Source: Thioalkalivibrio sp. ALE31
GTDB lineage: Bacteria; Pseudomonadota; Gammaproteobacteria; Ectothiorhodospirales; Ectothiorhodospiraceae
Direction: 5' to 3'
Length of the DNA: 64,000 bases
NCBI RefSeq assembly: GCF_000377405.1
Contig: NZ_KB905020.1
Span: forward strand, 558,001-622,000
The position numbers and the translations under genes were made by a program. The notes beneath the pieces are model-generated. The model searched no databases. It worked only from the letters and a program-made list of their open reading frames with translations, and was not told where the DNA came from. Shown here one piece after another: positions 9,481-53,255 of this stretch (positions are counted from its first letter, which is position 1; every line of letters begins with the position of its first letter).

Positions 9481-9517
9481 GCTGTTCCTTGTTCTTGCTG
9501 GATCCGCGCTGGCGCGG

Positions 9518-30573: not shown

Positions 30574-33500
30574 TTGGCGCATATGGAAATCACGACCTTC
30601 GGCACCGTCGGCGTGCGCGTGGAGGACCGTGACATACCCGCTCTCTCCGGGACGAAACTCGGCCTGCTCCTCACCTATGTGGCGGCCGAGAGCCCGCGGC
30701 GTATCCCGCGCGAGGAACTGGCGCGCCTGTTCTGGCCCGACTTGGACGCCGACAGCGCCCGGGTCAACCTGCGCCAGGGCCTGTTCCAGCTGCGTCGCCA
30801 GCTACCCGCCGGCGACCCGCCCCTGCTCGACACGACGCCCCGCTATGTGCGCTTCCAGCCGCAAGCGGACTCGCGCATCGACTTCCTCACCCTGCAGCGT
30901 GCGCGCTCCGAGCGCCGCACGACCGAGGGGCGGGAGACCACGGCACCCCCGCCGGACCTGGCCATTGTGTGCGAGTACCGCGGACACTTCCTCGAGGGCC
31001 TGCGCGCCCTGCAGGACCTGCCGGAACTATCCGCCTGGGCCCAGTCCCAGCGCGACCATCACTGGCAGAATCTTCTGGTCTTCATCGGCCACAATCTCCC
31101 CGAACTCGCCAAGCCCAACGAGGGCGAACCCCTGCTGGCCGAGCTCCACCGCCTGCTGGCCATGGAGCCCCACGACGAGACCCTGCACCACCTCCTGATG
31201 AAGGCCCTGGCGGCCAGCGGCCACCCCAAGCGCGCGCTCGAGCACTATGCCCACCTGGAGGCCGAGGCCGGCAAGCCCCCGGGCGAACTGCTGGCGCGCA
31301 CGCGCGAGGAAATCCTGGGCGCCGAACGCGCCGAGGCCAGCCATCAGCACGCCAGCCCCGAGGATGCCGAGCCCGCCACCCTGCGCCCCGAGCGCCGTCG
31401 GGTCACGGTCGTGGCCTGCCATGTACAGCCCGATGCCGACGCCGACATCGAGATCCAGCAGCAACAGGTCAACCGCACGCTGGAGCATGTCGACTTCGTC
31501 CTGTTGAGCCACCACGGCCATGTCGTGCCCTCGCCCGGCCATGGCCTGCTCGCCTATTTCGGCTATCCCGCCGGACGCGAAGAGGCGACGGTCGACGCCG
31601 TGCATGCCGCCTGGCAGGCGCTGGAGAGCGCCCCCGGTGACTGCCAGCTGCGCCTCGCCGTGGATACCGACCTGATCGTCACCGGCGCCGACCCGGATCT
31701 GCCCGACCCCGCCGGCCAGCTCACCGCCCGCGTACACGAGTGCGCCCAGCGCGCCGACCCCGGCACCCTGCGCGTCAGCGCACCCACCCATGCCCGCGTG
31801 TCCGGCTACTTCAGCTTCCGCGAGGCGGAGGACGGCACGGGCGCCTACCGCGTCACCGGCGATCCCGGTCCGCTGGACCGCGTGGATGCCCAGACCCTGC
31901 GTGGCCTGACGCCGCTGACCGGCCGCAGCCCGGAACTGCAGGCACTGCGTAGCCACTGGGATCAGGTGCTCGACCGCGACGAGGTCCGCTTCGTGCTGGT
32001 TCAGGGCGAGGCCGGTCTGGGCAAGAGCCGCCTGGCCCGCGGGCTCGATCTCCAGGTCCGCGGCCAGGCCCGCTCACGCTACCTGCTCAAGTGCCGTGAA
32101 GACCGCGCCCGCCAGCTCCTGGCCCCGGTACGCCAGGCCTTCGCCACCTGGATGGGACACGACACCCTGCGCGATGCCCGGAAGCGCCGACTCGCCGGCG
32201 CCCTCAAGCATGCCGGGGTCGCCCCGGAGCTTGCGCCACGCCTGGCCCACTGGCTCACCCATCCGGACGCCGACGGTCCCGAAAGCCTCGCCCACGAAGG
32301 GCTGGACCGCGACCGCATCATCGACACCCTGGTCGAACTGGTGCAGCGGCGCGCCGCCCACGGTCCGACCCTCCTGATCTGCGACGATCTCCACTGGATG
32401 GACTCGGGCACGGCGGAGTTCCTGCGCCGGCTGTACCAGCGCCTGCAGCACCAGCCCCTGATGGCCATCCTGACCGCGCGCATGAGCTTCCGCTCCTCCT
32501 GGCGCGATCTCTCGCTGCAGCACATCCGCCTGCACGGCCTGGACGATGCCGCCGCCCGCGACCTGGTCGATCGCCTGGACCCCCACGGCCGCCTGGCCAG
32601 CGGCCTGCGCGACCAGCTGGTCGAACGCGGCGAAGGCGTGCCGCTGTTCCTCGAGGAACTCACGCGGTATGCCCTGGAGGCTGCCCGCAGCGGTCAGCTC
32701 CCGGACACCCTGCCACCCGGTCTCTCCAACCTGCTGGTCGCACGCCTGGAACAGCTGGGCAGCGCCCGGGAACTGGCCCACTCGGCCGCAGTCATCGGCC
32801 GCGACTTCGATACCCGCATCCTCAGCCGACTGCGTGGTCAACCCGCCGACACCATCCGGCGGCAGCTGACCCGGCTGACCGGAAAGGGATTCATCGAACC
32901 CGCCGGCATGGTGGACGGCGTGCGCTATCGCTTCCGCCACGCCCTGTTCCGTCAGGCGGCCTACGAGTCGATGCTGCTGAGTGAACGCACGCGCCTGCAC
33001 GGCCAGCTGGCCGACCTGATGCAGGAAGACGGCGAGAACGGCATGCAGACCGCGGACTGGGGCCGCATCGCCAGCCACCTCTACCATGCCGCTCGCTACC
33101 CCGAGGCGGTCAGCGCCTGGCTGCATGCCGGCGAGGCGGCGTTCGCGCGCGGCCTCCTGCCCGAGGCCTCGCACTACTTCGAGGATGCCCTGGCCTGCCT
33201 GGAGCGCCATCCGGAGGCTCACAAGGAACATGAGCCGACGGATTTGGAACACAACACGCTGCGCGCCCTCGGCGGGCTCGGCGCGTCCAATCTGGCCCTG
33301 CTGGGCTATGGCTCACGCACGGTCAATGACATCTTCGAACGGGCCATGCACCTGACCGCGCCGGAGCAGGATCCGGTGCAGTACTTCCGCGTGCTGTGGG
33401 GTTTGTGGCACGGCGCCGGCTCCTGGCATGGCTTCACCGAGGCCCACCGTCTCGCCGGGGAGATGGAACAGCTCGCCGAGCGATCCGGCGACCGCCTGCT

Positions 33501-34398
33501 GCGGATCGCCGCCCATTACGTACAGGGCAACACCCACTTCTGGACCGGTCGCTTCGCCGAGGCCCTGGAACATCAGACCCGGGCGGTGGAGCTCTATCGC
33601 GAGGAAGACCACGCCGCCCTGGTAGCCCGGCACACCGAGAACCCGGCCATCAGCGCGCGCGGCTTCATGGCCTGGACGCTGCTCCACCTGGGGAACCACG
33701 CGCGCGCCTGGGCCGAGATGGACACCGCCTGCGAGCAGGCGGTCGCACTCGGCCATCGGCCCACCGAGGCCTTCGTGCAGGCCTTCCGCGCCGTGCTCGG
33801 CTTCTACAGCGGGGATCCGGACTCCACCCTGCCGGCGGCACGCCGAACGCTCGCCATCGCGCACGATTACGACTACCCGCTGTGGCGCGCCGCCGGCATC
33901 ACCCTCGAGAGCTGGGCCCTCGCCCGCCAGGGACAGGGCGACGCCTGCCAGGCCATAAAGCAGCAGGTGGAGGCCATGCGTCACATCATGGACGGGGTCA
34001 ACACCATCTTCCAGTACATCCTGCTGGACGCCCTGCAGGCCAGCGGCGCCGCGGCGGACCAACGCCTGAGCGTCGCCGACGACGCCCTGGCCGGCTGCCG
34101 CAAGCGGGGCGACCTCGCGTTCGAAGCGCCGGTCCGGCGCCTGCGCGCCGTGGCCCTGCTCGACCAGAGCCAGGGACGCGACGAAGAAGGCTGGCACGAA
34201 CTCGAGCGCGCCCGCCGTATCGCCCACGAACAGGGCAACCCCAATATCGAGCGCCAGGCCCTACTGGACCATGCGCGCTACGCCACGGACCCCCAGGTGC
34301 AGTCCTGGGCCGAGCGCGAACTCCTGCGCATCAACCACTGCATCATCCCCCGCCCGCACCCCGACGAACCCCGCCAGCGCGACCCCCGCCTCGCCTGA
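30574..34398 (+). CDS. Large BTAD-AAA-TPR transcriptional regulator with degenerate cyclase domain
   Basis: 1,274 residues. Residues ~5-100 resemble the winged helix of SARP/AfsR proteins (EITTFGTVGVRV, RIPREELARLFWPD), and ~130-250 form the BTAD helical domain. Residues ~270-460 look like a class III nucleotide cyclase domain, but its metal aspartates are replaced (ACHV for the usual CDLV, GHGLLAYFG for GDGLLAYFG), so it should be inactive. A STAND/AAA ATPase follows: Walker A GEAGLGKSRLA near 478, Walker B LLICDDLHWMD near 600. TPR-like helices fill the rest. TTG 30574 sits 5 bases after GGGAGA; ATG 30583 is the alternative. Targets are unknown. Confidence 0.82.
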   Translation: MAHMEITTFGTVGVRVEDRDIPALSGTKLGLLLTYVAAESPRRIPREELARLFWPDLDADSARVNLRQGLFQLRRQLPAGDPPLLDTTPRYVRFQPQADSRIDFLTLQRARSERRTTEGRETTAPPPDLAIVCEYRGHFLEGLRALQDLPELSAWAQSQRDHHWQNLLVFIGHNLPELAKPNEGEPLLAELHRLLAMEPHDETLHHLLMKALAASGHPKRALEHYAHLEAEAGKPPGELLARTREEILGAERAEASHQHASPEDAEPATLRPERRRVTVVACHVQPDADADIEIQQQQVNRTLEHVDFVLLSHHGHVVPSPGHGLLAYFGYPAGREEATVDAVHAAWQALESAPGDCQLRLAVDTDLIVTGADPDLPDPAGQLTARVHECAQRADPGTLRVSAPTHARVSGYFSFREAEDGTGAYRVTGDPGPLDRVDAQTLRGLTPLTGRSPELQALRSHWDQVLDRDEVRFVLVQGEAGLGKSRLARGLDLQVRGQARSRYLLKCREDRARQLLAPVRQAFATWMGHDTLRDARKRRLAGALKHAGVAPELAPRLAHWLTHPDADGPESLAHEGLDRDRIIDTLVELVQRRAAHGPTLLICDDLHWMDSGTAEFLRRLYQRLQHQPLMAILTARMSFRSSWRDLSLQHIRLHGLDDAAARDLVDRLDPHGRLASGLRDQLVERGEGVPLFLEELTRYALEAARSGQLPDTLPPGLSNLLVARLEQLGSARELAHSAAVIGRDFDTRILSRLRGQPADTIRRQLTRLTGKGFIEPAGMVDGVRYRFRHALFRQAAYESMLLSERTRLHGQLADLMQEDGENGMQTADWGRIASHLYHAARYPEAVSAWLHAGEAAFARGLLPEASHYFEDALACLERHPEAHKEHEPTDLEHNTLRALGGLGASNLALLGYGSRTVNDIFERAMHLTAPEQDPVQYFRVLWGLWHGAGSWHGFTEAHRLAGEMEQLAERSGDRLLRIAAHYVQGNTHFWTGRFAEALEHQTRAVELYREEDHAALVARHTENPAISARGFMAWTLLHLGNHARAWAEMDTACEQAVALGHRPTEAFVQAFRAVLGFYSGDPDSTLPAARRTLAIAHDYDYPLWRAAGITLESWALARQGQGDACQAIKQQVEAMRHIMDGVNTIFQYILLDALQASGAAADQRLSVADDALAGCRKRGDLAFEAPVRRLRAVALLDQSQGRDEEGWHELERARRIAHEQGNPNIERQALLDHARYATDPQVQSWAERELLRINHCIIPRPHPDEPRQRDPRLA

Positions 34399-36520: not shown

Positions 36521-36964
36521 ATGAATACCGCTCTTACTCGGCTCTCCACGCTGCTCGTGCTGACGGGAGGCCTCGCGCTGGCCGGAAGTGCCATGGGCAG
36601 CGACCGCATCGCGCCGCCGGATGGCGCGAAGGTCTATTTCATCAGCCCGCAGGATGGCGAAACGCTCGAAAGCCCGGTGCGGGTCCAGATGGGCCTGCGC
36701 GGCATGGGTGTCGCCCCGGCCGGTGTGGAGATGGACAACACCGGCCACCACCACCTGCTGGTGAACAAGCCGCTCGACGAGGTGGACCTGGACGCCTCGC
36801 TGCCCTTCTCCGACCACAAGCGCCATTTCGGCGGCGGGCAGACCGAGGGCGAGCTGGAACTGGAACCCGGCGAATACACCCTGCAACTGCTGTTCATGGA
36901 CTACCGTCACATCAGCTTCGACCCGCCCGTTGTCTCCGAGAAGATCACGATTACGGTGGAATAG
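36521..36964 (+). CDS. Exported DUF4399 protein
   Basis: 147 residues. A signal peptide ([19 protein letters not shown]) is cut near SDRIAPP. The mature part carries the DUF4399 pattern: [58 protein letters not shown]. The GHHHLL cluster could bind a metal, which is inference. AGGAG just upstream supports ATG 36521 over 36479. Periplasmic, function unknown. It converges on the cytochrome c peroxidase gene. Confidence 0.85.
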
Positions 36965-37039: not shown

Positions 37040-38044
37040 TTACGGCAGCGCAGGAATCTCGAACTGCGGCATTTCGCCGGTCAGCGCGTGCATGAAGGCC
37101 TCGATATCCGCGACCTCGTCATCACTGAAGTCCTGCCCCAGCATTTCCTCGCCCATGATGCGGATCGCCTCTTCCAGCGTGGCGGTCTCCCCGTTGTTCA
37201 TGTAGGGGTAGGTCAGGGCCACGTTGCGCAGGGTCGGGGTCTTGAACGCAAACCGGTCGCTCTCCTCACCCGTGACCAGGTAGCGGCCCTCGTCCTCCGA
37301 ACCCGGCACCTGGATGCGGTGGAAGTTGCTGTCGGTCAGCGCCGGCCCACGGTGACAGGCCACGCAGCCGTTGTCGGCGAACAGCTTCATCCCGCGCATC
37401 TGCTGCTCGCTCATCGCGCCCTCATCCCCGGCCAGCCAGCGATCCAGCGGCGAGTTCGGGGTGTTCAGCGTACGCTGGAACGTCGCCAGCGCCTTGGCCA
37501 CGTGGTCGGTATTGATCACGTTGTCGCCGTCATAGTCGGGATAGGCGGCCTCGAATTTCTCCTGGTACTCATTGAACTCCTCCAGGCGGGCGATCGCATC
37601 CTCCAGCGGCATCGCCATCTCGATCGCGTCCTGGATCGGGCCCAGGGCCTGCCCCTCCAGGTCGTCCTCTCGGCCATCCCAGAACTGCGCGGTGAAGAAG
37701 CCGGAATTCAGCACGGTCGGGGTATTGCGCTCGCCAACCTGGCCGTCATGGCCTACCGCGCGCGGGATGCGGTCCGCCCAGCCCAGCGCCGGGTTGTGGC
37801 AGGTCGCGCAGGAGATCACGCCGGAGCTGGAGATGCGCGGCTCGAAGAACAGCATCTTGCCCAGCTCGATCTTCTCCTTGGTCATCGAGTTGTCCGCCGG
37901 GATCGGCGGCAGCGCCGGCAGCGGCTCGAACACATCGCGATACTGCGAGTAATCAGTATCCGCCACGGCGGGCGCGGCCACGCCCAGCGCCAGGGCGGTG
38001 CAGGCCGAAAAGATGGCGCTGCGAAGATAAGAACCTCGGATCAT
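37040..38044 (-). CDS. ccpA: Di-heme cytochrome c peroxidase
   Basis: 334 residues, typical of periplasmic bacterial CCPs. A signal peptide ends near VAAPAVA. Two c-type heme sites are visible: SCATCHNPALGW for the peroxidatic heme and GCVACHRGPAL for the electron-transfer heme. ELGKMLFFEP, WDGREDDLEGQ and TPTLRNVALTYPYMNNG are family hallmarks. It reduces H2O2 with electrons from cytochrome c. An FNR-type box lies ~120 bp upstream, so low-oxygen control is likely. Confidence 0.94.
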   Translation of the reverse strand: MIRGSYLRSAIFSACTALALGVAAPAVADTDYSQYRDVFEPLPALPPIPADNSMTKEKIELGKMLFFEPRISSSGVISCATCHNPALGWADRIPRAVGHDGQVGERNTPTVLNSGFFTAQFWDGREDDLEGQALGPIQDAIEMAMPLEDAIARLEEFNEYQEKFEAAYPDYDGDNVINTDHVAKALATFQRTLNTPNSPLDRWLAGDEGAMSEQQMRGMKLFADNGCVACHRGPALTDSNFHRIQVPGSEDEGRYLVTGEESDRFAFKTPTLRNVALTYPYMNNGETATLEEAIRIMGEEMLGQDFSDDEVADIEAFMHALTGEMPQFEIPALP

Positions 38045-38164
38045 GGCAAAGTCTCCCTGAGATTGGATCGGTGTCGGCGAAGACCGATATAGACTCGGTC
38101 CAAATCACCTGAATCCCACCCTATCGACCCGGTATTCGATCGACCAGCGAAATCAGCGCTCCCG

Positions 38165-38178
38165 TTGATCCAGATCAA
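38165..38178. promoter_or_regulatory. FNR/ANR-type box
   Basis: TTGATCCAGATCAA fits the FNR consensus TTGAT-N4-ATCAA exactly. It lies between ccpA (start 38044, minus) and the riboswitch-controlled porin gene (plus). A -41.5 placement would put the ccpA transcript start near 38130. ccpA homologues in Pseudomonas are known FNR-family targets. The palindrome does not exclude control of the plus-strand genes. Confidence 0.7.
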
Positions 38179-38250
38179 TCACTGCGGTTGGTCGCTCATC
38201 AGACGCTCTTCTTGCCAGCCTGTTTGCACCCCAGTACCCTTCGCCCCGCC

Positions 38251-38444
38251 TCCAGGTGCCCTGGCGTTCCATCGCCGGGGATAATCGGGAAGCCGGTGCG
38301 CGAACTGCCGTTCGCAATGCCGGCACTGCCCCCGCAACGGTAGGTGAAGACAACGGATCAACAACCACTGCGCCGCAATTCGGTGTGGGAAGGCGATCCG
38401 CCCGGGCACCCCCGCCCGCTTCACGAGTCCGGAGACCGGCCAGG
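38251..38444 (+). promoter_or_regulatory. Cobalamin riboswitch upstream of porin and cytochrome genes
   Basis: The conserved parts occur in order: ATAATCGGGAAGCCGGTG (38281-38298), the B12-box region CACTGCCCCCGCAACGGTA (38324-38342), CCACTG...TGTGGGAAGGC (38366-38393) and GAGTCCGGAGACCGGCC (38425-38441). It is clearer than the leader at 30.4 kb. The next plus-strand genes are a porin and a cytochrome c'-like protein. A GGTCGGG...CCCCGACC pairing (about 38478-38514) between riboswitch and gene could serve as the switching terminator. Confidence 0.9.
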
Positions 38445-38569
38445 AGGAAACCTGACGCTGCGGCGGGCAAGCGGTCGGGTCGGGCTTGCTGTGTCTATAG
38501 TCCCCGACCTCCCCTGGCCCACCCAGCGTCGTTCCATCCACGGCGCACGGGGTGTGCGTCCCAGGGAGA

Positions 38570-39700
38570 ATGACCTTGAACAAACCGACCCGACGACCCG
38601 GCCGGCCGCCACTCCTGGCTCCGGCCCCGACCCTTCTCGGCCTGTTGATCGCCAGTGGCGGGGCTTCCCCCCTCCAGGCACAGTTCGAGTTCGGCAGCGA
38701 AGCCGACGGCTTCGCCATCACCCTGGACCCGCTCATCCAGGGCCGCTACGCCATCGAGCGGGGCGACGAGGGAACCACCACCGAATTCGACTTTCGCCGC
38801 GCCTGGCTGGATACGACGGGCACCCTCTTCCACCCCGATCTTAGTTTTCGCCTGCAGCCCGACTTCAGCAGCGGCGAGCTCTCGATGCGCGATGTCTGGC
38901 TCCAATACGCACTGACCGAGTCCCTCGACCTGCGCGCCGGCCAGTTCACCGTACCCTTCGGCCTGCCGCGGGACATCGGTGGCCCCAACCGGCTGTTCAC
39001 CGAATTGAGCATCGCGGGGAATCAGTTCGAGGTCCCGGCTGGACGCGATACCGGCGTCACCCTACTGGGGGGCGACAGCGACGACCGGGCCTGGGCCATC
39101 GGCGTGTTTGATGGTCGCGGCCGCCTTGACCAGCGGGATGACCGACCGTCCACCTCCGGCCACCTGTTCAGCGCTCGGGGGGCCTGGGCACCGGTAGGCA
39201 CCCTTCCACGCGACAACACGACCGTCGGCAAGCCGGTCGAGCATACAGTGGCCCACGGCGTCGGCCTGCAGGCGGCGAACCGCAATCACCTGCGCGACTG
39301 GACTCGCGGGCGGGAGAACCAGGTAAATCAGCAACGCGCCGACTGGGTCACCGCAACGGCCGACAGCGTCGTCAAGTTTGCCCGCACCGCCATTTCATTC
39401 GCCGCCTTCCGCCGCGACGTATCGCCCGATCACGGCCCCTCCTACCACGACTTGGGCGCCGAACTCGAGCTGGCTCAGGCACTGCCCTGGGAGGGGCTCG
39501 AGGTTGCCGCGCGCCACGCTGTGCTGCGCCACGACGCCGGCAACGACCTCGGCACCGACGAGCGCTGGCAGCGCGAGCGGGGCGCCGGCCTCAACTGGTA
39601 CCACCGCGGCCAGCGACAAAAAACCCAATTGATGTGGCTGGACCGCGACGCCGGCACTTCGGACTGGGAGCTGCACTTGCAGCACCAATTCCGCTTCTGA
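38570..39700 (+). CDS. Outer-membrane porin, phosphate-selective (OprO/OprP)-like
   Basis: 376 residues. A signal peptide (LLAPAPTLLGLLIASGGASPLQA) is followed by amphipathic beta strands and family landmarks: DFRRAWLDTTGTLF, LSFRLQPDFSSGELSMRDVWLQYAL and LRAGQFTVPFGLPRDIGG. The last residues ELHLQHQFRF end in Phe, as outer-membrane barrels require. The substrate cannot be inferred. Control by a cobalamin riboswitch suggests a corrinoid or cobalt link. ATG 38570 is too close to AGGGAG; TTG 38576, seven bases after it, is an alternative start. Confidence 0.83.
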   Translation: MTLNKPTRRPGRPPLLAPAPTLLGLLIASGGASPLQAQFEFGSEADGFAITLDPLIQGRYAIERGDEGTTTEFDFRRAWLDTTGTLFHPDLSFRLQPDFSSGELSMRDVWLQYALTESLDLRAGQFTVPFGLPRDIGGPNRLFTELSIAGNQFEVPAGRDTGVTLLGGDSDDRAWAIGVFDGRGRLDQRDDRPSTSGHLFSARGAWAPVGTLPRDNTTVGKPVEHTVAHGVGLQAANRNHLRDWTRGRENQVNQQRADWVTATADSVVKFARTAISFAAFRRDVSPDHGPSYHDLGAELELAQALPWEGLEVAARHAVLRHDAGNDLGTDERWQRERGAGLNWYHRGQRQKTQLMWLDRDAGTSDWELHLQHQFRF

Positions 39701-39720
39701 CACTGGAAAGGAGATCCGAC

Positions 39721-40278
39721 ATGACTCGACCCCCCTTTACACCGGCCCTCCGGATCGCCGGCCTTGTCCTGTTCCTGCTTGCCGCCACCGGCGCCCATGG
39801 CGACGAGGTGACGCTCCCCATGCCCGGCCCCTGGGGCAAAGACTACAGCGAGACGATGGACAACCCGGCCACAGTGGACGCCACCGAGGCCTTCCAGCGC
39901 TTCCGCCAGCAAAGCATGCAGGGCACCTCAGCCACCTACCGCAGCATCGAGCAGATCCTGCGCTACGACGCACCGTTCGCCGAGCGCCTGCCCGACCTCG
40001 CCGAGGAACTGGCGCGCCGAGCCGCCGACATCGAAACCTGGTTCGCTCGCGAGACCCCGGCGCGGGGCGGCGAACCCGGCGCCCTGCCCGCGGCCTGGGA
40101 GGACCCGGAGTTCTCCGAGTACAAGGCAGCCTACCGCGAGGCCGCCGAACGACTGCAGCGCAAGGTCGAGGCGGCCGAGGACCTGGAGAACGAAGACTTC
40201 CAGCTTCGCGCCACCGAGGCCCTGAACGGCGTGCGCCACCATTGCTTGGCCTGCCACGACCACTACCGCCGCCGCTAA
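39721..40278 (+). CDS. Cytochrome c'-like exported monoheme protein
   Basis: 185 residues. A signal peptide (IAGLVLFLLAATGAHG) precedes a mostly helical mature protein. The single heme motif is at the extreme C-terminus, CLACHDHYRRR. CxxCH near the end followed by YR is the mark of class II cytochromes (c' and c-556). The upstream AAGGAGA supports ATG 39721. It lies 20 bp after the porin and is surely co-transcribed. Cytochromes c' bind gases such as NO; this one may differ. Confidence 0.82.
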   Translation: MTRPPFTPALRIAGLVLFLLAATGAHGDEVTLPMPGPWGKDYSETMDNPATVDATEAFQRFRQQSMQGTSATYRSIEQILRYDAPFAERLPDLAEELARRAADIETWFARETPARGGEPGALPAAWEDPEFSEYKAAYREAAERLQRKVEAAEDLENEDFQLRATEALNGVRHHCLACHDHYRRR

Positions 40279-40295
40279 ACCGGGCGGGAACCAAG

Positions 40296-40318
40296 GGGCC
40301 GCCTCACGGCGGCCCTTT
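40296..40318 (+). terminator. Terminator after the cytochrome c'-like gene
   Basis: An 8-bp stem, GGGCCGCC (40296-40303) and its complement (40308-40315), with loop TCAC and a short T-run. It follows the stop by 17 bp. Confidence 0.65.
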
Positions 40319-40346
40319 CCGTGGTCCTGATCGAGAAGAAACCGCC

Positions 40347-40406
40347 TTCGCCTGCAAGCAGACTCCTACAGGTTCCTGGCGATGTGGGAACCTGCTTGCA
40401 GGCGAA
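40347..40406. repeat. REP-like palindrome in the convergent gap
   Basis: TTCGCCTGCAAGCAG (40347-40361) pairs exactly with 40392-40406. An inner GGTTCC/GGAACC pair makes a bulged hairpin. It also contains ACTCCTACA, as the 53.7-kb palindrome does (CTCCTACA). It lies between the convergent cytochrome and cobM genes. Confidence 0.6.
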
Positions 40407-40472
40407 AAGCCCAGTGCCCCACAACACCCACCGGAGTCACCCCTGCCTGCGGAAGATCGGGGCCGCCGCCGC

Positions 40473-41237
40473 TTAGTCCCCGTCCATGCCGCGGTAACGG
40501 CGCACATGCGCCGGGTCGTACAGCGCACTGTCGCGGAAATCGCCCGGGTCCAGCGCCGGGCCCACCAGGATCAGCGCCGAGCGCCGCGTGGTCAGGGCCT
40601 GCGCCCGTTCCGCGATATTCCCCAGCGAACCGCGCACCACGGTCTCGTCCGGCCAGCTGGCACGGAAGACGATGGCCACCGGGCAGTCGCAGCCGTAGTG
40701 CGGCCGCAGGTCCTCGACCACGGTCTCGATATTGTGCAGCGAAAGATGGATCGCCAGGGTCGCCCCGGTGGCGGCAAAGCTCGCCAGCCGTTCGCGCTCC
40801 GGCATGGAGGACGCCCGTCCCGGCGTGCGCGTCAGCACCACCGACTGCGCCACCTCCGGCACCGTCAGTTCCCGCCCCAGGGTCGCGGCGGCGGCGGAGA
40901 ATGCCGGCACGCCGGGCGTGATGCTGTACTCGATCCCGGCCGCCTCCAGCCGACGGATCTGCTCGCCCAGCGCGCTGTAGACCGACAGGTCGCCGGAGTG
41001 CAGGCGCGCCACGTCCTGGCCCGCCGCGTGGGCGCGTTCGATCTCCTCCATGATCGCGTCCAGCGTCAGCGGCGCGGTGTTGACCACGCGCGCCCCCTCC
41101 GGGGCATGTTCCAGCACGGCCTCCGGCACCAGTGAACCCGCGTACAGGCACACCGGACAGGCCGCAATACGATCCCGGCCGCGCAGGGTCAGCAGATCCG
41201 CGGCACCCGGGCCTGCACCGACAAAATGAACCGTCAT
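40473..41237 (-). CDS. cobM: Precorrin-4 C11-methyltransferase
   Basis: 254 residues, standard. It methylates C11 of the corrin precursor using SAM. The fold-typical motifs are [15 protein letters not shown] at the N-terminus, [15 protein letters not shown] in mid-protein, [13 protein letters not shown], and the CobM-type [15 protein letters not shown]. Its start overlaps the cobE stop by 4 bp. It is the last gene of the corrin region. Confidence 0.95.
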
Positions 41238-41659
41238 GATGACTCCTCGAAAAGATGTTGGCGGTCGACCCAGGCCACCGCGCAGCTGGCCTGCGGTGAC
41301 AGACGCCGCGGCAACAGCAGACGCGCGCCCTCGCCGGCCGCTGCCAGCGCCGCTGCCTCGGCCACGGAACCGACCCCGGCCGTTGCACGCACCCGTGGCG
41401 ACTCCGTCAGCACTCCCCCCTGGCAGTCCGCAAGGGCGGCCATGGACGGGAATACGAGTTCCAGTTCCAGCTCCCGCGCGACCGTCGCCAGCATGCGACT
41501 GTCACTCTTATGCACCGGTGCCGCCAGCTGCCGGGCCCCGAGCACTCCGGCACGCTCCACTCCCAGCACGGCGCGAGCCTCGGCCAGTACCTCGCGCATC
41601 AGACCCTCCAGCTCCCGGGCCGTACAGGCGGAGGCGAAGCCGACGCCCGGCACGACCAA
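41234..41659 (-). CDS. cobE: Cobalamin biosynthesis protein CobE (CbiG C-terminal domain)
   Basis: 141 residues, the usual CobE size. Motifs are [50 protein letters not shown] and a Gly/Ala-rich core. CobE resembles the C-terminal domain of CbiG, which in the anaerobic route helps remove the C2 unit from the ring; its role in the aerobic route is not settled. TTG 41659 is chosen because AGGAGG ends 5 bases upstream; GTG 41653 is possible. The start lies inside the end of cobL (stop 41674), separated from it by 14 bp. Confidence 0.85.
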
Positions 41660-41673
41660 GCCCCCCTCCTGGT

Positions 41674-42909
41674 TCAGATCCGGCGCAGGGCCCACAGGGT
41701 CACCGGCCGCAGCGGTTTCCAGCCGGACATCGCGCCCAGCGGTTCCGAGCGACTCACATTGATGCGTGTCAGCTCGCCACCATGGCGCTCGCGAGCCGCC
41801 GCCAACACCGCATCGCCCTCCACCGTCACGCTGCTGGCGACCAGGCGCCCCCCCGGGCACAGACGCTCCACGCAGTGTTCCACCAGCCCGGGCGTCGTCA
41901 GCCCACCACCGATGAAGATCGCGTCGGGGGCAGACAGGTCATCCAGCGCCTCCGGCGCGCGCCCGTGGATGCGGCGCAGTGCCGGCACCCCCAGCGCGCT
42001 CGCGTTGCGCGCGATGCGTTCCAGACGCTCCGCACGCGGCTCGATGGCCACCGCTTCATTGGCCGGGTCCGCCAGCATCCACTCGATGCCGATGGAACCG
42101 GAACCGGCACCCACGTCCCAGAGCCGTTCGCCACGACCAGGTGCCAGCAGGGCCAGTGCCACCGCACGCACCTCGCGCTTGGTAATCTGACCATCCTGCT
42201 CGAACTCCGCCTCCGGCCGACCGGCGCTCGCCGCAAGCACCGTTGCTGCCGGATCGGCCCGGCACTCCAGCGCCACGGTGTTCAGTGCCTCGATCCCGAC
42301 CTCCGGCCAGGCATCGGCACGCGCGCTGACGGCCGTCTCGTTGGCCGCGCCCAGGGACTGCAGTACGGTCAGGGTGGAATCACCGAAGCCGAGCCCGGTC
42401 AACCAGCGTGCCAGCTCCGCCGGCGTGTCTCCGTCGCGGCTCAGGATCAGCAACCGCGCGCCGTTGTGCAGCCAGGGCCGCAGCGCCTCCATGGGCCGGC
42501 CGTGCACCGACAGGCAGCGGGTCTGCTGCAGCGGCCAGCCCATCCGCGCAGCCGCCAGGCTGAACGCCGAGGGCGCGGGCCAAACACAGGTCTGAGCGAC
42601 CGGGAAACGTCGCATCAGGGTCGCCCCCACCCCGAACCAGAAGGGGTCGCCGCTGGCGAGCACGCACAGCGGCTGCCCGGCGCGTGCCTCGATCCAGTCC
42701 AGCGCGGTCTCCAGCGGCGACGGCCACACCAGGCGCTCCTGCCCCGGCCGCTCCGACAGCATCTCCAGATGCCGGGCGCCGCCGATCACCGTCGCCGCCG
42801 TGTCCAGCGCCATGCGGGCCCCGGGTGCCAGCCCGGCAAGCCCCTCCGCGCCTACGCCGACGATATTCAGCCATGGCGTTGGTTCACTGTTCGTCGCTAG
42901 ACTGGTCAT
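41674..42909 (-). CDS. cobL: Precorrin-6B C5,15-methyltransferase/decarboxylase, CbiE-CbiT fusion
   Basis: 411 residues, the normal size for fused CobL. The CbiE-like half (to ~200) has IVGVGAEGLAGLAPGAR and CVLASGDPFWFGVGATLM. The CbiT-like half has GQITKREVRAVALALLAP and the SAM loop LWDVGAGSGSIGIEW. It methylates C5 and C15 and decarboxylates the C12 side chain. Its start is divergent from cobK; a further ATG at 42915 would make the two start codons overlap within the palindrome CTCATGAG. Confidence 0.95.
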   Translation of the reverse strand: MTSLATNSEPTPWLNIVGVGAEGLAGLAPGARMALDTAATVIGGARHLEMLSERPGQERLVWPSPLETALDWIEARAGQPLCVLASGDPFWFGVGATLMRRFPVAQTCVWPAPSAFSLAAARMGWPLQQTRCLSVHGRPMEALRPWLHNGARLLILSRDGDTPAELARWLTGLGFGDSTLTVLQSLGAANETAVSARADAWPEVGIEALNTVALECRADPAATVLAASAGRPEAEFEQDGQITKREVRAVALALLAPGRGERLWDVGAGSGSIGIEWMLADPANEAVAIEPRAERLERIARNASALGVPALRRIHGRAPEALDDLSAPDAIFIGGGLTTPGLVEHCVERLCPGGRLVASSVTVEGDAVLAAARERHGGELTRINVSRSEPLGAMSGWKPLRPVTLWALRRI

Positions 42910-42913
42910 CCTC

Positions 42914-43714
42914 ATGAGCTCCCGTTCATCTCCTGACTCCAGCCCCCGGGCGGCTCGCCCGCGGCAGATCCTGCTGCTGGGCGGCACGACCGAGGCCGCG
43001 GCGCTGGAACCACTGCTGGATGTGCACCCGCGGCTGCAGGCCACCGTCTCGCTGGCCGGGCGCACCCGAAAACCGGGGCCGGCGCGGCTGCCTCGGCGCA
43101 CCGGCGGGTTCGGCGGCGTCGACGGCCTCGCCGCCTGGCTGCACGAACACGCCATCGACGCCCTGGTGGACGCGACCCACCCGTTCGCACGGCAGATCTC
43201 GGCCAACGCCGTCTCGGCTGCGCGCCAGACCGGCATCCCGCTGGCCCGCCTGACCCGACCGTCGTGGGAGGCCGGACCGGAGGACCGCTGGATCCGCGTG
43301 CCCGACCTCGCGGCCGCCGCCCGCGCCCTTCCGGAACTCGGCCGGCGCGTGCTGCTGACCACCGGCCGCCAGCACCTGGAGGCCTTCGAGGCCGCGCCCG
43401 AACTGGACTACGTCATCCGCACCATCGACCCGCCCGAACCACCGCCGGCGCTGCCGCGGGTTACCTGGATCCACGCCCGGGGCCCGTTCACGGCCGAAGA
43501 CGAGGCGCGCCTTTTGCGGGAACACACGATTGACGTGCTGGTGACCAAGGACAGCGGCGGCGATGCCACGGCCGCCAAGCTGCAGGCGGCCCGCGAACGG
43601 GGTATGCCGGTTGTGATGGTGGAGCGCCCGCCGGATGCCCCCGGGGTGCCGCGATTCCACGCCCCGCAGGCGGTACTCGACTGGCTGGAGGATCTCCCGG
43701 ACGCGCACGGCTAA
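42914..43714 (+). CDS. cobK: Precorrin-6A reductase
   Basis: 266 residues. It reduces precorrin-6A to 6B with NADPH. Motifs are ILLLGGTTEAAALEPLL, VDATHPFARQISANA, RWIRVPDL, VLLTTGRQHLEAF and LVTKDSGGDATAAKL. It is the only cob gene on the plus strand, lying between cobL and cobJ; it converges on cobJ with a 13-bp gap. Expression must come from a separate promoter, probably inside cobL. Confidence 0.94.
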   Translation: MSSRSSPDSSPRAARPRQILLLGGTTEAAALEPLLDVHPRLQATVSLAGRTRKPGPARLPRRTGGFGGVDGLAAWLHEHAIDALVDATHPFARQISANAVSAARQTGIPLARLTRPSWEAGPEDRWIRVPDLAAAARALPELGRRVLLTTGRQHLEAFEAAPELDYVIRTIDPPEPPPALPRVTWIHARGPFTAEDEARLLREHTIDVLVTKDSGGDATAAKLQAARERGMPVVMVERPPDAPGVPRFHAPQAVLDWLEDLPDAHG

Positions 43715-43727
43715 CGCGGCTCCCGCC

Positions 43728-44513
43728 TCATTCCGCGGACTCGACATAACGCGGGGTGTACACGTGCCGCCGGCCCGAAGGACGCTCCAGCACCCGAGTG
43801 GAGGCGGCGCCCACGATCACCAGCGTGCTCATGTTCGCCGTCGTCGGGTCCACCTCGCCGAGGGTGGAGATCTGCACGTCTTCGCGTTCGCCGCGGCCCA
43901 CCGCGGTGGCCAGCACGACCAGGGTGTCCGGCCCCTGCACCTCGCGCACGATGCCCAGTGCCTCGCCCAGCTGCCAGGGACGTGCGCGCGAGATCGGGTT
44001 GTAGAAGGCCATGGCGAAGTCGGCCTCGGCCGCCAGCCGTACCCGACGCTGGATCAGCGACCAGGGCTTGAGGTTGTCCGACAGCGAGATCACGCAGAAA
44101 TCGTTTCCCAGCGGTGCACCCAGCCGCGCCGCGGCGGCCTGCATCGCCGACACCCCGGGCAGCACCTCCACCGTCACCGCGTCCCAGCGACCCGGCTCCG
44201 AGCCTTCCAGGGCCTCGAAGACCGCGGCCGCCATCGCGAACACACCCGGGTCGCCGCCCGAAACCACCGCTACGTCCCGCCCCTCGGCGGCCAAATCCAG
44301 GGCGTGGGTTGCGCGCGCCAGTTCCTCGCGGTTGTCCGAGGCGTGCACACGGTGGTGGGCGGCCGCAATCCGTTCCAGGTACGGCCCGTATCCCACCAGG
44401 TCGGTCGCCGCTTCGAGACGGGCAGCGACCTCCGGCGTGATCCATTCCGGCCCCGCCGGACCCACCCCGACCACACTCAACCGACCGACCACCGGACCAC
44501 CATCCCCGCTCAT
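43728..44513 (-). CDS. cobJ: Precorrin-3B C17-methyltransferase
   Basis: 261 residues. It performs ring contraction with C17 methylation. Motifs are VVGVGPAGPEWITPEV, the family-specific DLVGYGPYLERI, VVSGGDPGVFAMAAAV, PLGNDFCVISLSDNLKPW and MAFYNPISRARPWQL. It overlaps cobI by 4 bp. Confidence 0.96.
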   Translation of the reverse strand: MSGDGGPVVGRLSVVGVGPAGPEWITPEVAARLEAATDLVGYGPYLERIAAAHHRVHASDNREELARATHALDLAAEGRDVAVVSGGDPGVFAMAAAVFEALEGSEPGRWDAVTVEVLPGVSAMQAAAARLGAPLGNDFCVISLSDNLKPWSLIQRRVRLAAEADFAMAFYNPISRARPWQLGEALGIVREVQGPDTLVVLATAVGRGEREDVQISTLGEVDPTTANMSTLVIVGAASTRVLERPSGRRHVYTPRYVESAE

Positions 44514-45265
44514 CGCCGAACCCCGCGCCCGGGGATCACGATCATCGAGAAATAGGGCACCCGCTCCGGGATCTCGGACACTGGCAGGACCCGCTCCTCG
44601 GCGGTGCTGGCGCGTTCCACGTACCAGGCGCGCTCGTCCAGCCCCAGCTCCTGAAGGACACCCACCACCGCATCGCGATGGGTTCCGACCTTCATGATGA
44701 CCGCCGCATCGGTCCCCTGCAGGGCCTGGCGCAGATCGTCGATCGGCATCGTGCCGGGGATCACCGTCAGCAGGTCATCGCGCATGGTCAGCGGCGTCGA
44801 CAATTGCGCAGCCGAGGCCATCATCGAGGTCACGCCAGGGACCACGTGGGTGGGAAACCGATCCTTCAGCCGCAGGTAGACGTGCATGAACGATCCGTAG
44901 AAGAACGGATCGCCCTCGTTCAACACCACCACCGAACGCCCGGCTGCCAGTTCGGCAGCCAGTTGCTCGGCGGCGGCGTCGAAGAACTGCTCGATGCGGC
45001 GGCGATACTCGTCAGAGCCGTGCGGGATCTCGTTGGTCACCGGATACTCCAGCGGCATCTCCTGCTGCCCCGTGCCCAGGTGGGCGTCCACGATGGCGCG
45101 CGCCTGGCCACGGCCACCCCGGCGACAGAAATAGGCCACTACCGGGCTCTCTGCAATCAGGCGCGCGGCCTTCAGCGTCAGCAACTCGGGATCACCCGGC
45201 CCGGTGCCCACGCCGTACAGACAACCCGCGGCCGCGGGTTCATGCAGCTTGGGGGATGTCGTCAT
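44510..45265 (-). CDS. cobI: Precorrin-2 C20-methyltransferase
   Basis: 251 residues. It adds the C20 methyl group. Motifs are GVGTGPGDPELLTLKAARLI, VVAYFCRRGGRGQAR, VVLNEGDPFFYGSFMHVYLRL and VPGVTSMMASAAQL. It overlaps cobH and cobJ by 4 bp each, so translation is coupled. Confidence 0.96.
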   Translation of the reverse strand: MTTSPKLHEPAAAGCLYGVGTGPGDPELLTLKAARLIAESPVVAYFCRRGGRGQARAIVDAHLGTGQQEMPLEYPVTNEIPHGSDEYRRRIEQFFDAAAEQLAAELAAGRSVVVLNEGDPFFYGSFMHVYLRLKDRFPTHVVPGVTSMMASAAQLSTPLTMRDDLLTVIPGTMPIDDLRQALQGTDAAVIMKVGTHRDAVVGVLQELGLDERAWYVERASTAEERVLPVSEIPERVPYFSMIVIPGRGVRR

Positions 45266-45915
45266 ATCCGGTCACTCGCAAAGGCGTTGATGGCCGCCGC
45301 GGCCATGGCGCTGCCACCGCGGCGTCCGAAGATGGTCAGGTACTCGAGGTCCAGCGGGCTGGCGGCCAGCGCCTCCTTGCTCTCCACCGCACCGACAAAG
45401 CCCACCGGGATACCGAGTACCGCGGCCGGACGCGGCGCGCCCTGGTGCAGCATCTCCAGCAGGTGAAACAGGGCCGTGGGCGCATTCCCGATCGCCACCA
45501 CCGCACCCTCCATATGCGGTCGCCACCATTCCAGCGCCGCCGCCGAACGCGTTGTGCCCATACGCTCGGCAGCAGCCACCACTCCGTCCTCGCGCAGGCT
45601 GCAGATCACCGGGTTATCCGCCGGCAGCCGGGCGCGCGTGACCCCATGCGCCACCATGTTGCTGTCGCAGAGGATCGGCGCGCCAGCAGCCAGCGCCGCG
45701 CGAGCCGCCCGGGCCACGCCAGCCGAAAACCCGACGTCCTGCGGCAGGTCGGTCATACCGCAGGCATGGATCATGCGTACCACCGCAGACACCAGATCCT
45801 CCGGAAAACGATCCAGCGCCGCCTCGGATCGAATAATCGCGAAGGATTCCCGGTAGATGGCTGCGCCGTCGCGCTCGTAATCCGGTACGACCCCCGCGGT
45901 ATCGCTCTGCGTCAT
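45262..45915 (-). CDS. cobH: Precorrin-8X methylmutase
   Basis: 217 residues. It moves the C11 methyl group to C12, giving hydrogenobyrinic acid. The catalytic histidine is H50 in RMIHACGMTDLPQDV. PILCDSNMVAHGV, AIGNAPTALFHLLE and IPVGFVGAVESKEAL are family signatures. It overlaps the cobG stop by 4 bp. Confidence 0.97.
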   Translation of the reverse strand: MTQSDTAGVVPDYERDGAAIYRESFAIIRSEAALDRFPEDLVSAVVRMIHACGMTDLPQDVGFSAGVARAARAALAAGAPILCDSNMVAHGVTRARLPADNPVICSLREDGVVAAAERMGTTRSAAALEWWRPHMEGAVVAIGNAPTALFHLLEMLHQGAPRPAAVLGIPVGFVGAVESKEALAASPLDLEYLTIFGRRGGSAMAAAAINAFASDRI

Positions 45916-47318
45916 GTTTCTTCTCCGTTATTCATCATCGCGTTGAGGCGCCGACGCAGGTCGGTCGGGCCCAGCCTGCGCAGGGCCGCGAACATCCCGA
46001 CGCGCTCTGCGTGCGTAATCTGTTCAAGCGCCGACAGGGCCGCTCGCAGCTGATCCGGTGAAAGACCCTCAAGAAGGGCCTCCCAGTGCGCCGGGGCAGA
46101 TTGCAGCGACAGGTCGTAATGCCCCGCCCGCGCCGCAAGGACCACCCGGGCATTCGCGGGCCTCCCGCAGTGCTTCTCGCAGCCACTGACATGCAGATAT
46201 TCGTCATCCGCCAGCAGCCCGCGGGCGGCTGTCCCGAGCATCGCGGCGTCCGCCCGAGTGAATGTCGTACCCGCCGAGCATCCCCCCTGACCGACACAGG
46301 CGCTCACCACTAGGCGAGGATCTCGTGGATCCGTTACTCCGCCCCATTCAGCCAGCCGGTCCAGGGTGATCGGCCGCGCCCCGACCAGCAGCACGCTGCG
46401 CCAGGGAGTCAGCCGCAGGCGCCCTTCTTGGCCGCGGATCTGCTCGGCCAGCCCCCGCAGGGCCTCGGCGCGCAGGGATCCGAACGGGAACGCGACCCCG
46501 AAGGCATCGCCATTCAGGCACGCACCAATCCCGGAGTCGGCGTTTTCGCTGCTCCGTGCCGCAACCGGATCCCCACCCGGAAGCACCCGCTCCAGCCCGG
46601 GAGGCGTCAGGGCCTTCGCGCCGAACCGAGCCAGTGCGCCGGGCAAACGGCCCGGCGGATCCGGATCCCCCTGGCGCAGCGCCACGAATTGCTCGAGGAC
46701 TTGCAGGGCAGCGTCCACGGCCTTCTCCGGGCGTGCCCACCCAAGCACCGTCGCGGCGTGAGCCGACGCCCCGACGGCCACGCGAATCCACACGCCACCC
46801 GGTCCCGTACAGGCCTCCAGTCGAAGGTCCGCCGGCACTCTACCCAGCGGCAACCCGCCACCCGCCTCCACCAGCACCCCGACCTTCGGCGGCAGTGCGC
46901 GCAGGCGCGGGGTTGCGCCCAGTGCCCGCGCAAGTTGCCGCGCGATGGGCTGTACATCCATGGCGGCCTCCGGGTCGATATCCGTCGCTGGTGCCACCAG
47001 CACATTGCGCACCGCCTCCGCCTCGGGATCGCGATCCGCCAGACCCGCCGCCTCCAGTTCGGCCCGTGCCGTCTCCAGGCCCGGCGTGTCCAGACCGCGC
47101 AATTGCAGATTGCCGCGACTGGTCAGCTCCAGGTCACCGGAACCGAAACGCAGCGCCACCTCGGCGAGGATGCGCGCCTGCGCCGCGTCAAGCCCTCCGA
47201 TCGGGTGACGTACCCGCATCAGAAGCCCGTCTCCGGTCGTCATGGGCGCAGCGACTCCGGGACACGCCCGGCGCACACGCGGATGCTCGGCACCCAACGG
47301 CTTCGGACCCCTGCTCAT
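45912..47318 (-). CDS. cobG: Precorrin-3B synthase (oxygen-dependent)
   Basis: 468 residues (Pseudomonas denitrificans CobG ~460). A nitrite/sulfite reductase-like enzyme that hydroxylates C20 and forms the lactone, using O2. Two half-domains are visible (LLMRVRHPIGGLDAAQARIL, LELTSRGNLQLRGL). The 4Fe-4S ligands are ACVGQGGCSAG (C-x5-C) and SGCEKHCGRP (C-x3-C). Its presence assigns the pathway to the aerobic type. ATG 47318 overlaps the upstream permease stop by 4 bp; the longer open frame lies over the ABC genes. Confidence 0.93.
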   Translation of the reverse strand: MSRGPKPLGAEHPRVRRACPGVAAPMTTGDGLLMRVRHPIGGLDAAQARILAEVALRFGSGDLELTSRGNLQLRGLDTPGLETARAELEAAGLADRDPEAEAVRNVLVAPATDIDPEAAMDVQPIARQLARALGATPRLRALPPKVGVLVEAGGGLPLGRVPADLRLEACTGPGGVWIRVAVGASAHAATVLGWARPEKAVDAALQVLEQFVALRQGDPDPPGRLPGALARFGAKALTPPGLERVLPGGDPVAARSSENADSGIGACLNGDAFGVAFPFGSLRAEALRGLAEQIRGQEGRLRLTPWRSVLLVGARPITLDRLAEWGGVTDPRDPRLVVSACVGQGGCSAGTTFTRADAAMLGTAARGLLADDEYLHVSGCEKHCGRPANARVVLAARAGHYDLSLQSAPAHWEALLEGLSPDQLRAALSALEQITHAERVGMFAALRRLGPTDLRRRLNAMMNNGEET

Positions 47319-48088
47319 GACCGGATCCGCACGCCGCGAGCGACCAGGGTCCAGGCCACCCCGCCGACAACCAGGGTGGTCCCCACGAGCACCCAGAAGG
47401 TTGTGGCCCAGGCGAAGGACCCGGTCCCCAACAGGCCGTAGCGAAAGCCCTCGACCATGTAGTACAGCGGGTTCAGCGCTGCCAGCGACTGCCAGGGCTC
47501 GGGCATCCGTTCCACCGGATAGAACAGCCCTCCCAGATAGATCAGGGGGGTCAGCACAAACGTCGCCACCACGGAGGTGTGGTCGAAACTGCGCGCGTAC
47601 AGGCCATTCAGCAGGCCGGCCAGGGCGAACAGCGTGGCACTGACCAGCGCGATCCCCAGAGTCGCCGCCAGGTGGTGCAGTTGCAGGTTGGTAAACGGGA
47701 TCGCAACCAGCGCCACTAGCGCCCCGGCCAGCAGACCGCGGATCACCCCGCCGGTTGCAAAGCCCGCCACGATCAGCCAGGCGGGGAGTGGCGCAACCAG
47801 CAATTCCTCGATGTGCCGCTGCAGGCGCGCGCCATAGAACGCCAGCGTCACATTGCTGTAGGCGTTGGTGGACACGGCCAGGATGATCAGGCCCGGCAGG
47901 ATGAAATCGGCGTAGTCGACGCCACGCATGGTGCCCAGCTCGCGCCCGACCAGGTGGCCAAAGATCACCAGAAACAGAACGGTCGTCACCACCGATGGCA
48001 GCAGGTTCTGCACCCAGGCACGCAGGAAGCGGCGCACCTGCTTGATCACCATCCCGCGGTAGGCAAATCCGTAAGCCGCGAGCCTCAT
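47315..48088 (-). CDS. ABC-2 type transporter permease
   Basis: 257 residues with six hydrophobic helices. The ABC-2 signature is near the C-terminus (LIYLGGLFYPVERMPEPWQSL, LNPLYYMVEGFRYGLLG). It resembles the YadH/DrrB/NodJ group of export permeases. It is coupled by 4-bp overlaps to the ATPase upstream and to cobG downstream, so it is a fixed part of the cob operon. The substrate is unknown. Confidence 0.9.
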   Translation of the reverse strand: MRLAAYGFAYRGMVIKQVRRFLRAWVQNLLPSVVTTVLFLVIFGHLVGRELGTMRGVDYADFILPGLIILAVSTNAYSNVTLAFYGARLQRHIEELLVAPLPAWLIVAGFATGGVIRGLLAGALVALVAIPFTNLQLHHLAATLGIALVSATLFALAGLLNGLYARSFDHTSVVATFVLTPLIYLGGLFYPVERMPEPWQSLAALNPLYYMVEGFRYGLLGTGSFAWATTFWVLVGTTLVVGGVAWTLVARGVRIRS

Positions 48089-49029
48089 GTCCCGGCCCCC
48101 TGCGATGCACTGGCACGTTCCGCGATGCGCTGCAGGAACAGCGACTCGAGCCGGTTGCGCTTGTTGCGCAGGCCCGCCACCCGGACACCGTACACACCGA
48201 GACGCTCAAAAAGCGCGTTCACCTCCATACCCTGCGGCAGGTCAATCTCCAGGGTCCAGCGATCCACCCGCCGGATCGCCAACCCTTCCAGCTCGGGGCA
48301 CGCATCAAGGGGGGCGCTCAACTCGAGCACCAGGGTCTGCACGTTCAGCCCGTGCAGCAGTTCGCCGGTCTCGCCGCGCGCAACGATCTCGCCCTGACCC
48401 AGAATCGCCAGCGAATCGCACAGCGCTTCCGCCTCCTCGAGGTAGTGCGTCGTCAGGAGGATGGTCACACCATCCGCATTCAGCGCACGCAGCAGTTCCC
48501 AGGTTGTATGGCGTCCCTCGAGGTCAACCCCCGCGGTCGGCTCGTCCAGCAGCAGCACGCGCGGGCGGTGCACCAGCGCCCGGGCAATCATCAGCCGGCG
48601 CTTCATTCCGCCCGACAGCCCCCAGGCGGACTGCCGCCGCCGGTCCGCCAGGCCCACCTGTTCCAGTACCTGGCCAGTACGCTCGCGCGCCCGCCGCGGG
48701 GACAATCCGTAATAGGCCGCCTGGGCTTCAACAATCTCGCCCACCGGCTCGAAGCTGTTGAAGTTGATCTCCTGCGGCACCACGCCCATGCAGGCCTTCG
48801 CCGCAACCGCCTGTGTCGCCACGTCGAAGCCGCAGACCCGGATCGACCCGCGATCGGCCCGCACCAGCGTGGTCAGCAGTCCCACCAGGGTCGTCTTGCC
48901 GGCCCCATTCGGCCCCAGCAGGCCGAAAAAGCGGCCCGCCGGGACTTCCAGGTCCACGTCCGCCAGCCCGACCCGGCCACCGGCATAGCGCTTGGCCACC
49001 GACTTCAGGGCGATTGCCGGGGCCATCAT
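48085..49029 (-). CDS. ABC-2 transporter ATP-binding protein
   Basis: 314 residues (YadG/DrrA type, ~310). Walker A is LLGPNGAGKTTLVGLL, the signature is WGLSGGMKRRLMIARAL, Walker B is RVLLLDEPTAGVD, and the switch His is in LLTTHYLEEAEAL. The C-terminal ~90 residues form the domain typical of exporters with ABC-2 permeases. The start (tandem ATG) overlaps the cbiD stop. It pairs with the permease gene directly downstream. Confidence 0.93.
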   Translation of the reverse strand: MMAPAIALKSVAKRYAGGRVGLADVDLEVPAGRFFGLLGPNGAGKTTLVGLLTTLVRADRGSIRVCGFDVATQAVAAKACMGVVPQEINFNSFEPVGEIVEAQAAYYGLSPRRARERTGQVLEQVGLADRRRQSAWGLSGGMKRRLMIARALVHRPRVLLLDEPTAGVDLEGRHTTWELLRALNADGVTILLTTHYLEEAEALCDSLAILGQGEIVARGETGELLHGLNVQTLVLELSAPLDACPELEGLAIRRVDRWTLEIDLPQGMEVNALFERLGVYGVRVAGLRNKRNRLESLFLQRIAERASASQGAGT

Positions 49030-52964: not shown

Positions 52965-53255
52965 CTACTCGCCGATCAGGATCATTCGTCCGGTCTCCGG
53001 GTCACGGTAGACCTGGCCCATCGACTCGAAGCCGGAGCCGGCCTCGCCGGCGCCCTCGGGCGGGTCCGGGATCTCGCGCCCGGGTTCGATCTCGGCACCG
53101 CCGCTGGCCGGTTCCAGTCCGCTGCCCGAGGCGGCCATCACCACCATCAGGCCGACAGCGAACACGAGCATGATGTCGGCCAGATTGGCCAGTGGGCCCA
53201 TCGGCTCTTCGTCAGGGGCATCGAAGCGGCTGGCGCGGTAGTGCGGGACCCTCAT
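52965..53255 (-). CDS. DUF2149 protein, ExbD-like inner-membrane component
   Basis: 96 residues with one N-terminal transmembrane helix. The segment NLADIMLVFAVGLMVVM matches the ExbD/TolR pattern (FIDVMLVLLIIFMV in ExbD), including the membrane Asp that carries protons. A short periplasmic tail ends DPETGRMILIGE, typical of DUF2149. It overlaps the ExbB-like gene by 4 bp. This two-gene pair is known to me from loci with CobN-like proteins. An energising role with ExbB is inference. Confidence 0.8.
   Translation of the reverse strand: MRVPHYRASRFDAPDEEPMGPLANLADIMLVFAVGLMVVMAASGSGLEPASGGAEIEPGREIPDPPEGAGEAGSGFESMGQVYRDPETGRMILIGE

Follow-up and report, generated by a model that had tools for sequence, protein, structure and literature searches.

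A cobalamin riboswitch precedes a porin and a divergent cytochrome c' at the end of a B12-acquisition gene cluster in Thioalkalivibrio

Cobalamin riboswitches serve to read off B12 genes, and their known targets comprise B12 synthesis, uptake, cobalt supply and B12-independent isoenzymes (PMC7689651, in its accessible part). What, then, are a porin and a c-type cytochrome doing behind such a switch? The question arises from Thioalkalivibrio sp. ALE31, which belongs to the sulfur bacteria of soda lakes, in a 64,000-nucleotide stretch of contig NZ_KB905020.1 (hereafter the window, whose positions are used throughout); the genome (G000) amounts to 2.77 Mb in 16 contigs. Standing outside the usual target list, the pair of genes points to an unassigned step between the outside and the periplasm, and suggests that B12 acquisition has a redox-linked side so far unrecognised. 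If the cytochrome serves that step, the acquisition of B12 or cobalt gains c-type cytochromes among its components, and the two small genes become a direct handle on what exported CobN-family proteins do beside BtuB. If the pair is merely hitch-hiking, it is a warning against naming genes by their switch. Literature searches joining riboswitch with porin and cytochrome or with cobalt, and Thioalkalivibrio with cobalamin, found no description of the pair in the portions of the papers available, and a second Thioalkalivibrio study (PMC8092127) says nothing of it in the sections accessible.

Is the element really a cobalamin riboswitch? The original prediction had read one from the letters, and the covariance model agrees: RF00174 matches 38237-38458 on the plus strand over its full length (model positions 1-189 of 189) at 90.3 bits and E 5.1e-21, the gathering score being 31.5 bits. 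The start first proposed, 38251, falls 14 nt inside the element. The porin ATG follows 111 nt after its end on the same strand, and the intervening leader (38459-38569, plus strand), a probable expression platform, ends in GGGAGAATG, which by eye is Shine-Dalgarno-like. Nine aligned leaders give a consensus fold with a long helix and a hairpin, the hairpin standing just 5' of the Shine-Dalgarno-like GGGAG. Of its 50 predicted pairs, six show changes on both sides in one sequence or more, with a covariation term of only -0.12, and the window's leader folded singly gives z -1.96, 8 of 200 shuffles being equally stable. Such a fold would be compatible with control at the level of translation. A terminator between switch and porin, named with the original prediction as something that would refute it, was not found by a consensus scan of 38000-40500; this is weak evidence, because the scan returned one site where shuffles expect 1.5, and that site lies on the opposite strand beyond the pair (40361-40342). 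A hairpin 3' of the pair (40296-40320, plus strand; GGGGCCGCC-TCAC-GGCGGCCC-TTT) looks terminator-like by eye and is absent from the scan's list. By analogy with known cobalamin switches, B12 very probably controls the pair, and would do so by repression. The locus resembles the cobalamin regulons of btuB, cob/cbi, cobalt transport, metE and nrd in aptamer family, in leader position and, probably, in translational control, and differs from them in its targets, a porin and a c-type cytochrome.

Where does the switch come from? The genome holds three cobalamin riboswitches: that of the pair, one heading the btuB cluster (60992-61238, minus strand; RF00174, 79.4 bits) and a third at locus L001, where by eye the switch precedes genes resembling bluB and further cob genes and lies opposite btuF-like ones. 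An identity of only 48-53% (seven of the 11 pair switches against four btuB switches) rules out that the switch of the pair was freshly copied from that of btuB; identity to the one bluB-side switch compared with the same seven is 59-63%. Among themselves these seven are 75-99% identical, far closer to each other than to the btuB switches, and therefore represent an old separate switch.

What do the two genes encode? The first (38570-39700, plus strand, stop included, ATG at 38570) yields a protein of the Porin_O_P family, as proposed from the letters: PF07396 matches at E 2.6e-14 and 53.7 bits, above the gathering score of 20.9, over residues 62-209 only. The protein has a signal-peptide-like N-terminus and a C-terminal Phe. 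Its presumed mature part is net acidic (37 K+R, 49 D+E), a composition which does not favour selectivity for phosphate or other anions. Sequence comparison with solved structures and with plasmid records returned no match, and the AlphaFold model (mean pLDDT 29.4) is too poor for a fold search. A role as substitute for BtuB is ruled out, a BtuB-like receptor being already present in the neighbouring cluster.

The second gene (39721-40278, plus strand, stop included, ATG at 39721) begins 20 nt after the porin stop, and the two look co-transcribed from their layout. Its product is a divergent cytochrome c', predicted to be exported; here too the first reading of the letters stands, PF01322 matching at E 2.9e-13 and 51.3 bits for a cut-off of 26.5 (51.9 bits in the genome-wide Pfam screen). 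It shares with the cytochromes c' the C-terminal CxxCHD as well as the family score, and differs from them by its divergence and by a conserved N-terminal extension (MPGPWG). The ordinary cytochrome c' of the same genome scores 104 bits against 51.9 and is 30% identical to it. The single CxxCH of the pair's protein sits at the C-terminus, in CLACHDHYR, and is invariant in all 11 sequences. An MtrAB-type porin-cytochrome conduit is ruled out, since one CxxCH does not make a multihaem protein. Is the haem site that of a gas binder or of an electron carrier? Met66 aligns with the distal Leu of a solved cytochrome c', and we take it that a Met at this position could give a six-coordinate electron carrier of the c-556 kind. 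This residue is not special to the pair's cytochrome, because the ordinary cytochrome c' has a Met there too. The AlphaFold model is helical and, with a mean pLDDT of 55.7, too poor for a fold search.

How widespread is the arrangement? The family-level search covered 47 genomes, 30 of them in the genus Thioalkalivibrio, and an order-level search gave the same 47. At E 1e-10 the porin is present in 11 of the 30 genus genomes and absent from the 17 other family members; the same 11 give strong matches to the cytochrome. In every one of these genomes an RF00174 element lies upstream of the porin on the same strand, and switch, porin and cytochrome (hereafter the trio) keep identical order and orientation; the check proposed with the original prediction, to look for the same pair behind riboswitches of related genomes, thus has a positive outcome. 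Compared with the proteins of the window, identity in the 10 other genomes is 76-90% for the porin and 75-86% for the cytochrome, and the eight named porin relatives in the genome collection, all from Thioalkalivibrio, are 75-90% identical. Median dN/dS is 0.16 for the porin and 0.25 for the cytochrome (36 pairs each, from nine of the 11 sequences), and both are therefore kept as proteins by purifying selection.

Weak cytochrome matches in G028, G030 and G036 (E about 6e-7) and G045 (E 7.6e-19) were left out of the count of pairs, and none of these four loci has a switch. That of G045, which belongs to another genus of the family, is a degenerate relative at about 9434-9814 of locus L085, with the CxxCH end missing. 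Apart from the genome of the window itself, 369 genomes of the class gave six weak, partial matches to the porin profile (E 2.9e-13 to 8.2e-9) and a single weak one to the cytochrome profile (E 1.3e-8), with no close relative of either; a search of about 1.5 kb of flank found a switch at none of these seven loci, four trio control loci being positive in the same search. Of 229 genomes screened with Pfam, 59 have a cytochrome c', at 75 places in total including that of the window. No cobalamin switch lies near any of 60 other cytochrome c' loci, which cover 61 of the remaining 74 places (about 3 kb on each side, some cut by contig ends); the 13 places outside this screen are mostly short, weak matches. 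An SAH riboswitch at 4147-4245 of locus L121, in a genome of the same class, has a cytochrome c' gene roughly 0.9 kb away. Judged by these searches, the pair is a lineage-restricted addition to a well-known cobalamin regulon, because outside the genus the 369 class genomes gave no close relative and the 60 other cytochrome c' loci no switch within the stretch covered.

What surrounds the trio? To map the cluster, 22 window proteins and one btuF-like protein were placed on the corresponding regions from 15 genomes. The trio has the same setting in all 11 carriers: a MauG-like gene on one side and, on the other, the end of a convergent btuB / CobN-family cluster. The MauG/CCP-type di-haem protein (37040-38044, minus strand; PF03150, E 5.1e-57), divergent from the trio, stays under the NCBIfam cut-off for MauG (230 against 443.85 bits), and together with a small exported protein (36523-36964) it forms the cluster's constant flank. 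Further out on that side, a very large open frame (30574-34398, 1274 aa) reads by eye as a SARP/cyclase-type regulator with an ATPase domain. On the other side, the carriers share an order that runs from the trio through ring genes, if present, cobB, cobO, DUF2149, exbB, the CobN-family gene, pduO and btuB to the cluster's own riboswitch, 13 to 24 kb from that of the pair. In the window these are cobM, cobL/cbiET, cobK (on the plus strand), cobJ, cobI, cobH, a cobG-like gene, an ABC permease and ATPase, cbiD, cobA, cobB and cobO (40473-52912), and then, all on the minus strand, a DUF2149 protein (52965-53255; PF09919, E 3.7e-9), an ExbB-like proton channel (53252-53695; PF01618, E 9.3e-10), the CobN-family protein (53833-58371; PF02514, E 8e-245), a pduO-type cob(I)alamin adenosyltransferase (58483-59037; TIGR00636, 197.6 bits, cut-off 108.45) and a BtuB-like TonB-dependent receptor (59041-60849; TIGR01779, E 7e-154, its 513.7 bits just below the cut-off of 599.7). 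The ABC permease and ATPase genes (47315-49029), named by eye from sequence, lie inside the cob cluster in nine of nine full clusters.

Does the pair belong to this cluster? The CobN-family gene is present in 14 of the 30 genus genomes, and the pair in 11 of these 14 against none of the 16 others, seven of which are less than 90% complete. The one-sided Fisher test gives 6.7e-6, and 2.7e-4 when restricted to the 23 genomes with a completeness of 90% or more; both values ignore shared ancestry, and the carriers may be one clade. The exceptions are instructive. In G012, which has ring genes and the CobN-family gene and lacks the pair, cobM adjoins the MauG-like gene; G024 and G026 have the CobN-family gene with neither ring genes nor pair. 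With three genomes doing without it, the pair is dispensable to the cluster. In G020 the cluster is shorter and lacks both the CobN-family gene and the pair. Corrin-ring genes accompany nine of the 11 carriers; the other two, G018 and G025, retain the pair although their cluster has none, and neither genome has a cobM above cut-off at any place.

The CobN-family protein itself deserves attention. It has more than 1500 residues, is hydrophobic at its N-terminus and in a segment 5 residues short of its C-terminal end, and contains a His-rich insert with 29 His within 100 residues; by its hydropathy it looks exported and membrane-anchored. Which chelatase is it? It stays under every NCBIfam equivalog cut-off (CobN, 527 against 822 bits; BchH, 543 against 829), and compared with solved structures it reaches E 2.4e-100 for CobN, 4.1e-99 for HmuS and 3.1e-98 for ChlH. 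Being equally near to all three, it is not filed as HmuS. It is the sole PF02514 protein of a genome that has corrin-ring genes and in which CbiX found no match. HmuS is described as membrane-bound, with transmembrane segments at both ends; it takes iron from haem, using NADH as reductant in vitro (PMC12583661, accessible part). BtuS1 and BtuS2 are predicted to be periplasmic, membrane-anchored relatives (PMC6460266, likewise in part). The neighbouring protein likewise has hydrophobic ends and sits beside a TonB receptor and an ExbB-like gene. HmuS needs a reductant and, in the portion of PMC12583661 available, no cytochrome is reported with it. The locus here differs in that its receptor is BtuB-like. 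Could the cytochrome pass electrons in the periplasm to the CobN-family protein, whose substrate the porin admits? Such a B12-controlled redox route would remake or dismantle corrinoids, or extract cobalt, outside the cytoplasm, as a corrinoid counterpart of haem de-chelation by HmuS. We consider so specific a scheme improbable.

How might the pair work? The switch, the gene order, the conservation, the selection and the cluster membership are direct results. In the scheme that we prefer, B12 bound to the leader would lower the output of porin and cytochrome, probably at translation, and a shortage of B12 would raise the pair together with the btuB cluster, the latter through its own switch. 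The products, a porin in the outer membrane and a c-type cytochrome that is exported and belongs to the c' family, would assist the B12-acquisition cluster alongside (btuB, the CobN-family protein, exbB, DUF2149, cobO and cobB) as an optional accessory. For corrinoid supply the porin would pass a small solute, be it a cobalt species or a fragment of a corrinoid; the cytochrome would carry electrons in the periplasm so that cobalt or a corrinoid can be reduced. That the porin admits cobalt or corrinoids and the cytochrome reduces them had been suggested from the letters; it is possible, and synteny favours it, as all 11 trios end the btuB / CobN-family cluster. A part of some kind in B12 or cobalt acquisition seems likely to us. 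The whole explanation, a B12-repressed accessory of B12 acquisition in outer membrane and periplasm, is put forward tentatively, at somewhat less than an even chance, and the particular jobs, solute passage for the porin and electron carriage for the cytochrome, are rather doubtful. A partial parallel exists in Mycobacterium tuberculosis, where a cobalamin switch precedes an unexpected protein, PPE2, with cob genes alongside, as here (PMC11260477, accessible part). That source suspects PPE2 of cobalt transport; unlike the pair, PPE2 is not a PF07396-family porin and, as far as the same portion goes, has no cytochrome with it.

What else could explain these observations? Perhaps the pair supplies cobalt for de novo ring synthesis, the porin admitting Co(II), possibly as carbonate complexes of the alkaline brine, and the cytochrome freeing Co(II) by reducing Co(III) species. 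Pair and ring genes do go together in nine of the 10 ring-bearing CobN-family genomes, against two of the four without ring genes, and cobalt transport is a standard riboswitch target (PMC7689651, accessible part). A precedent for a metal-admitting porin comes from the delta-proteobacteria Geobacter and Desulfuromonas, in which Fur-controlled porins, one of them weakly PF07396-like, are proposed to take up ferrous iron (PMC545781, as far as the text is accessible). As would be the case for the porin here, they are under starvation control, and the Fur targets also list a putative cytochrome operon; the control there lies with a protein repressor and iron instead of a riboswitch and B12, and porin and cytochrome are in separate operons. 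Against cobalt for ring synthesis, G012 lacks the pair despite its ring genes, and the porin, being net acidic, would not obviously carry anionic complexes. G018 and G025 keep the pair without ring genes, which together with synteny favours corrinoid acquisition over cobalt for ring synthesis. We regard this alternative as unlikely, while giving it real weight. Somewhat harder to believe is that a porin-cytochrome operon with another job was captured by a cobalamin switch and persisted in a single clade, with no B12 role. The limitation of the pair to 11 genomes of one genus and its optional presence within the cluster would suit such hitch-hiking. It sits poorly with the conservation observed: in all 11 genomes the switch, the gene order and both frames persist, protein identity is 75-90%, and the cluster end that the trio occupies never varies.

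Cytochromes c' bind NO, and the pair's cytochrome belongs to PF01322. Might it then be a shield, binding NO or other ligands that attack cobalamin, with the porin as a general exchange route and both raised when B12 is short? Arsenite stress raised B12 synthesis genes in T. thiocyanoxidans ARh2 (PMC6620896, accessible part), a strain whose record carries the trio. The Met at the distal Leu position speaks against an open gas site, the porin is left unexplained, and our literature search found no paper joining cytochrome c prime, nitric oxide and cobalamin; protection strikes us as very improbable. The original prediction had also considered a stand-in for a B12-dependent activity, in the manner of metE for metH, and B12-independent isoenzymes are indeed known switch targets (PMC7689651, same part). 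Neither protein has a domain of a B12-dependent enzyme or an enzyme domain of the isoenzyme kind, and a porin cannot replace an enzyme, so that this proposal was dropped as scarcely credible.

A minor observation concerns the porin of strain ALJ7 (G018; locus L005, 1501-2628), which is a mosaic. Its first 200 or so residues are nearly those of the window's porin and the remainder is like that of locus L006, and intragenic recombination is therefore suggested.
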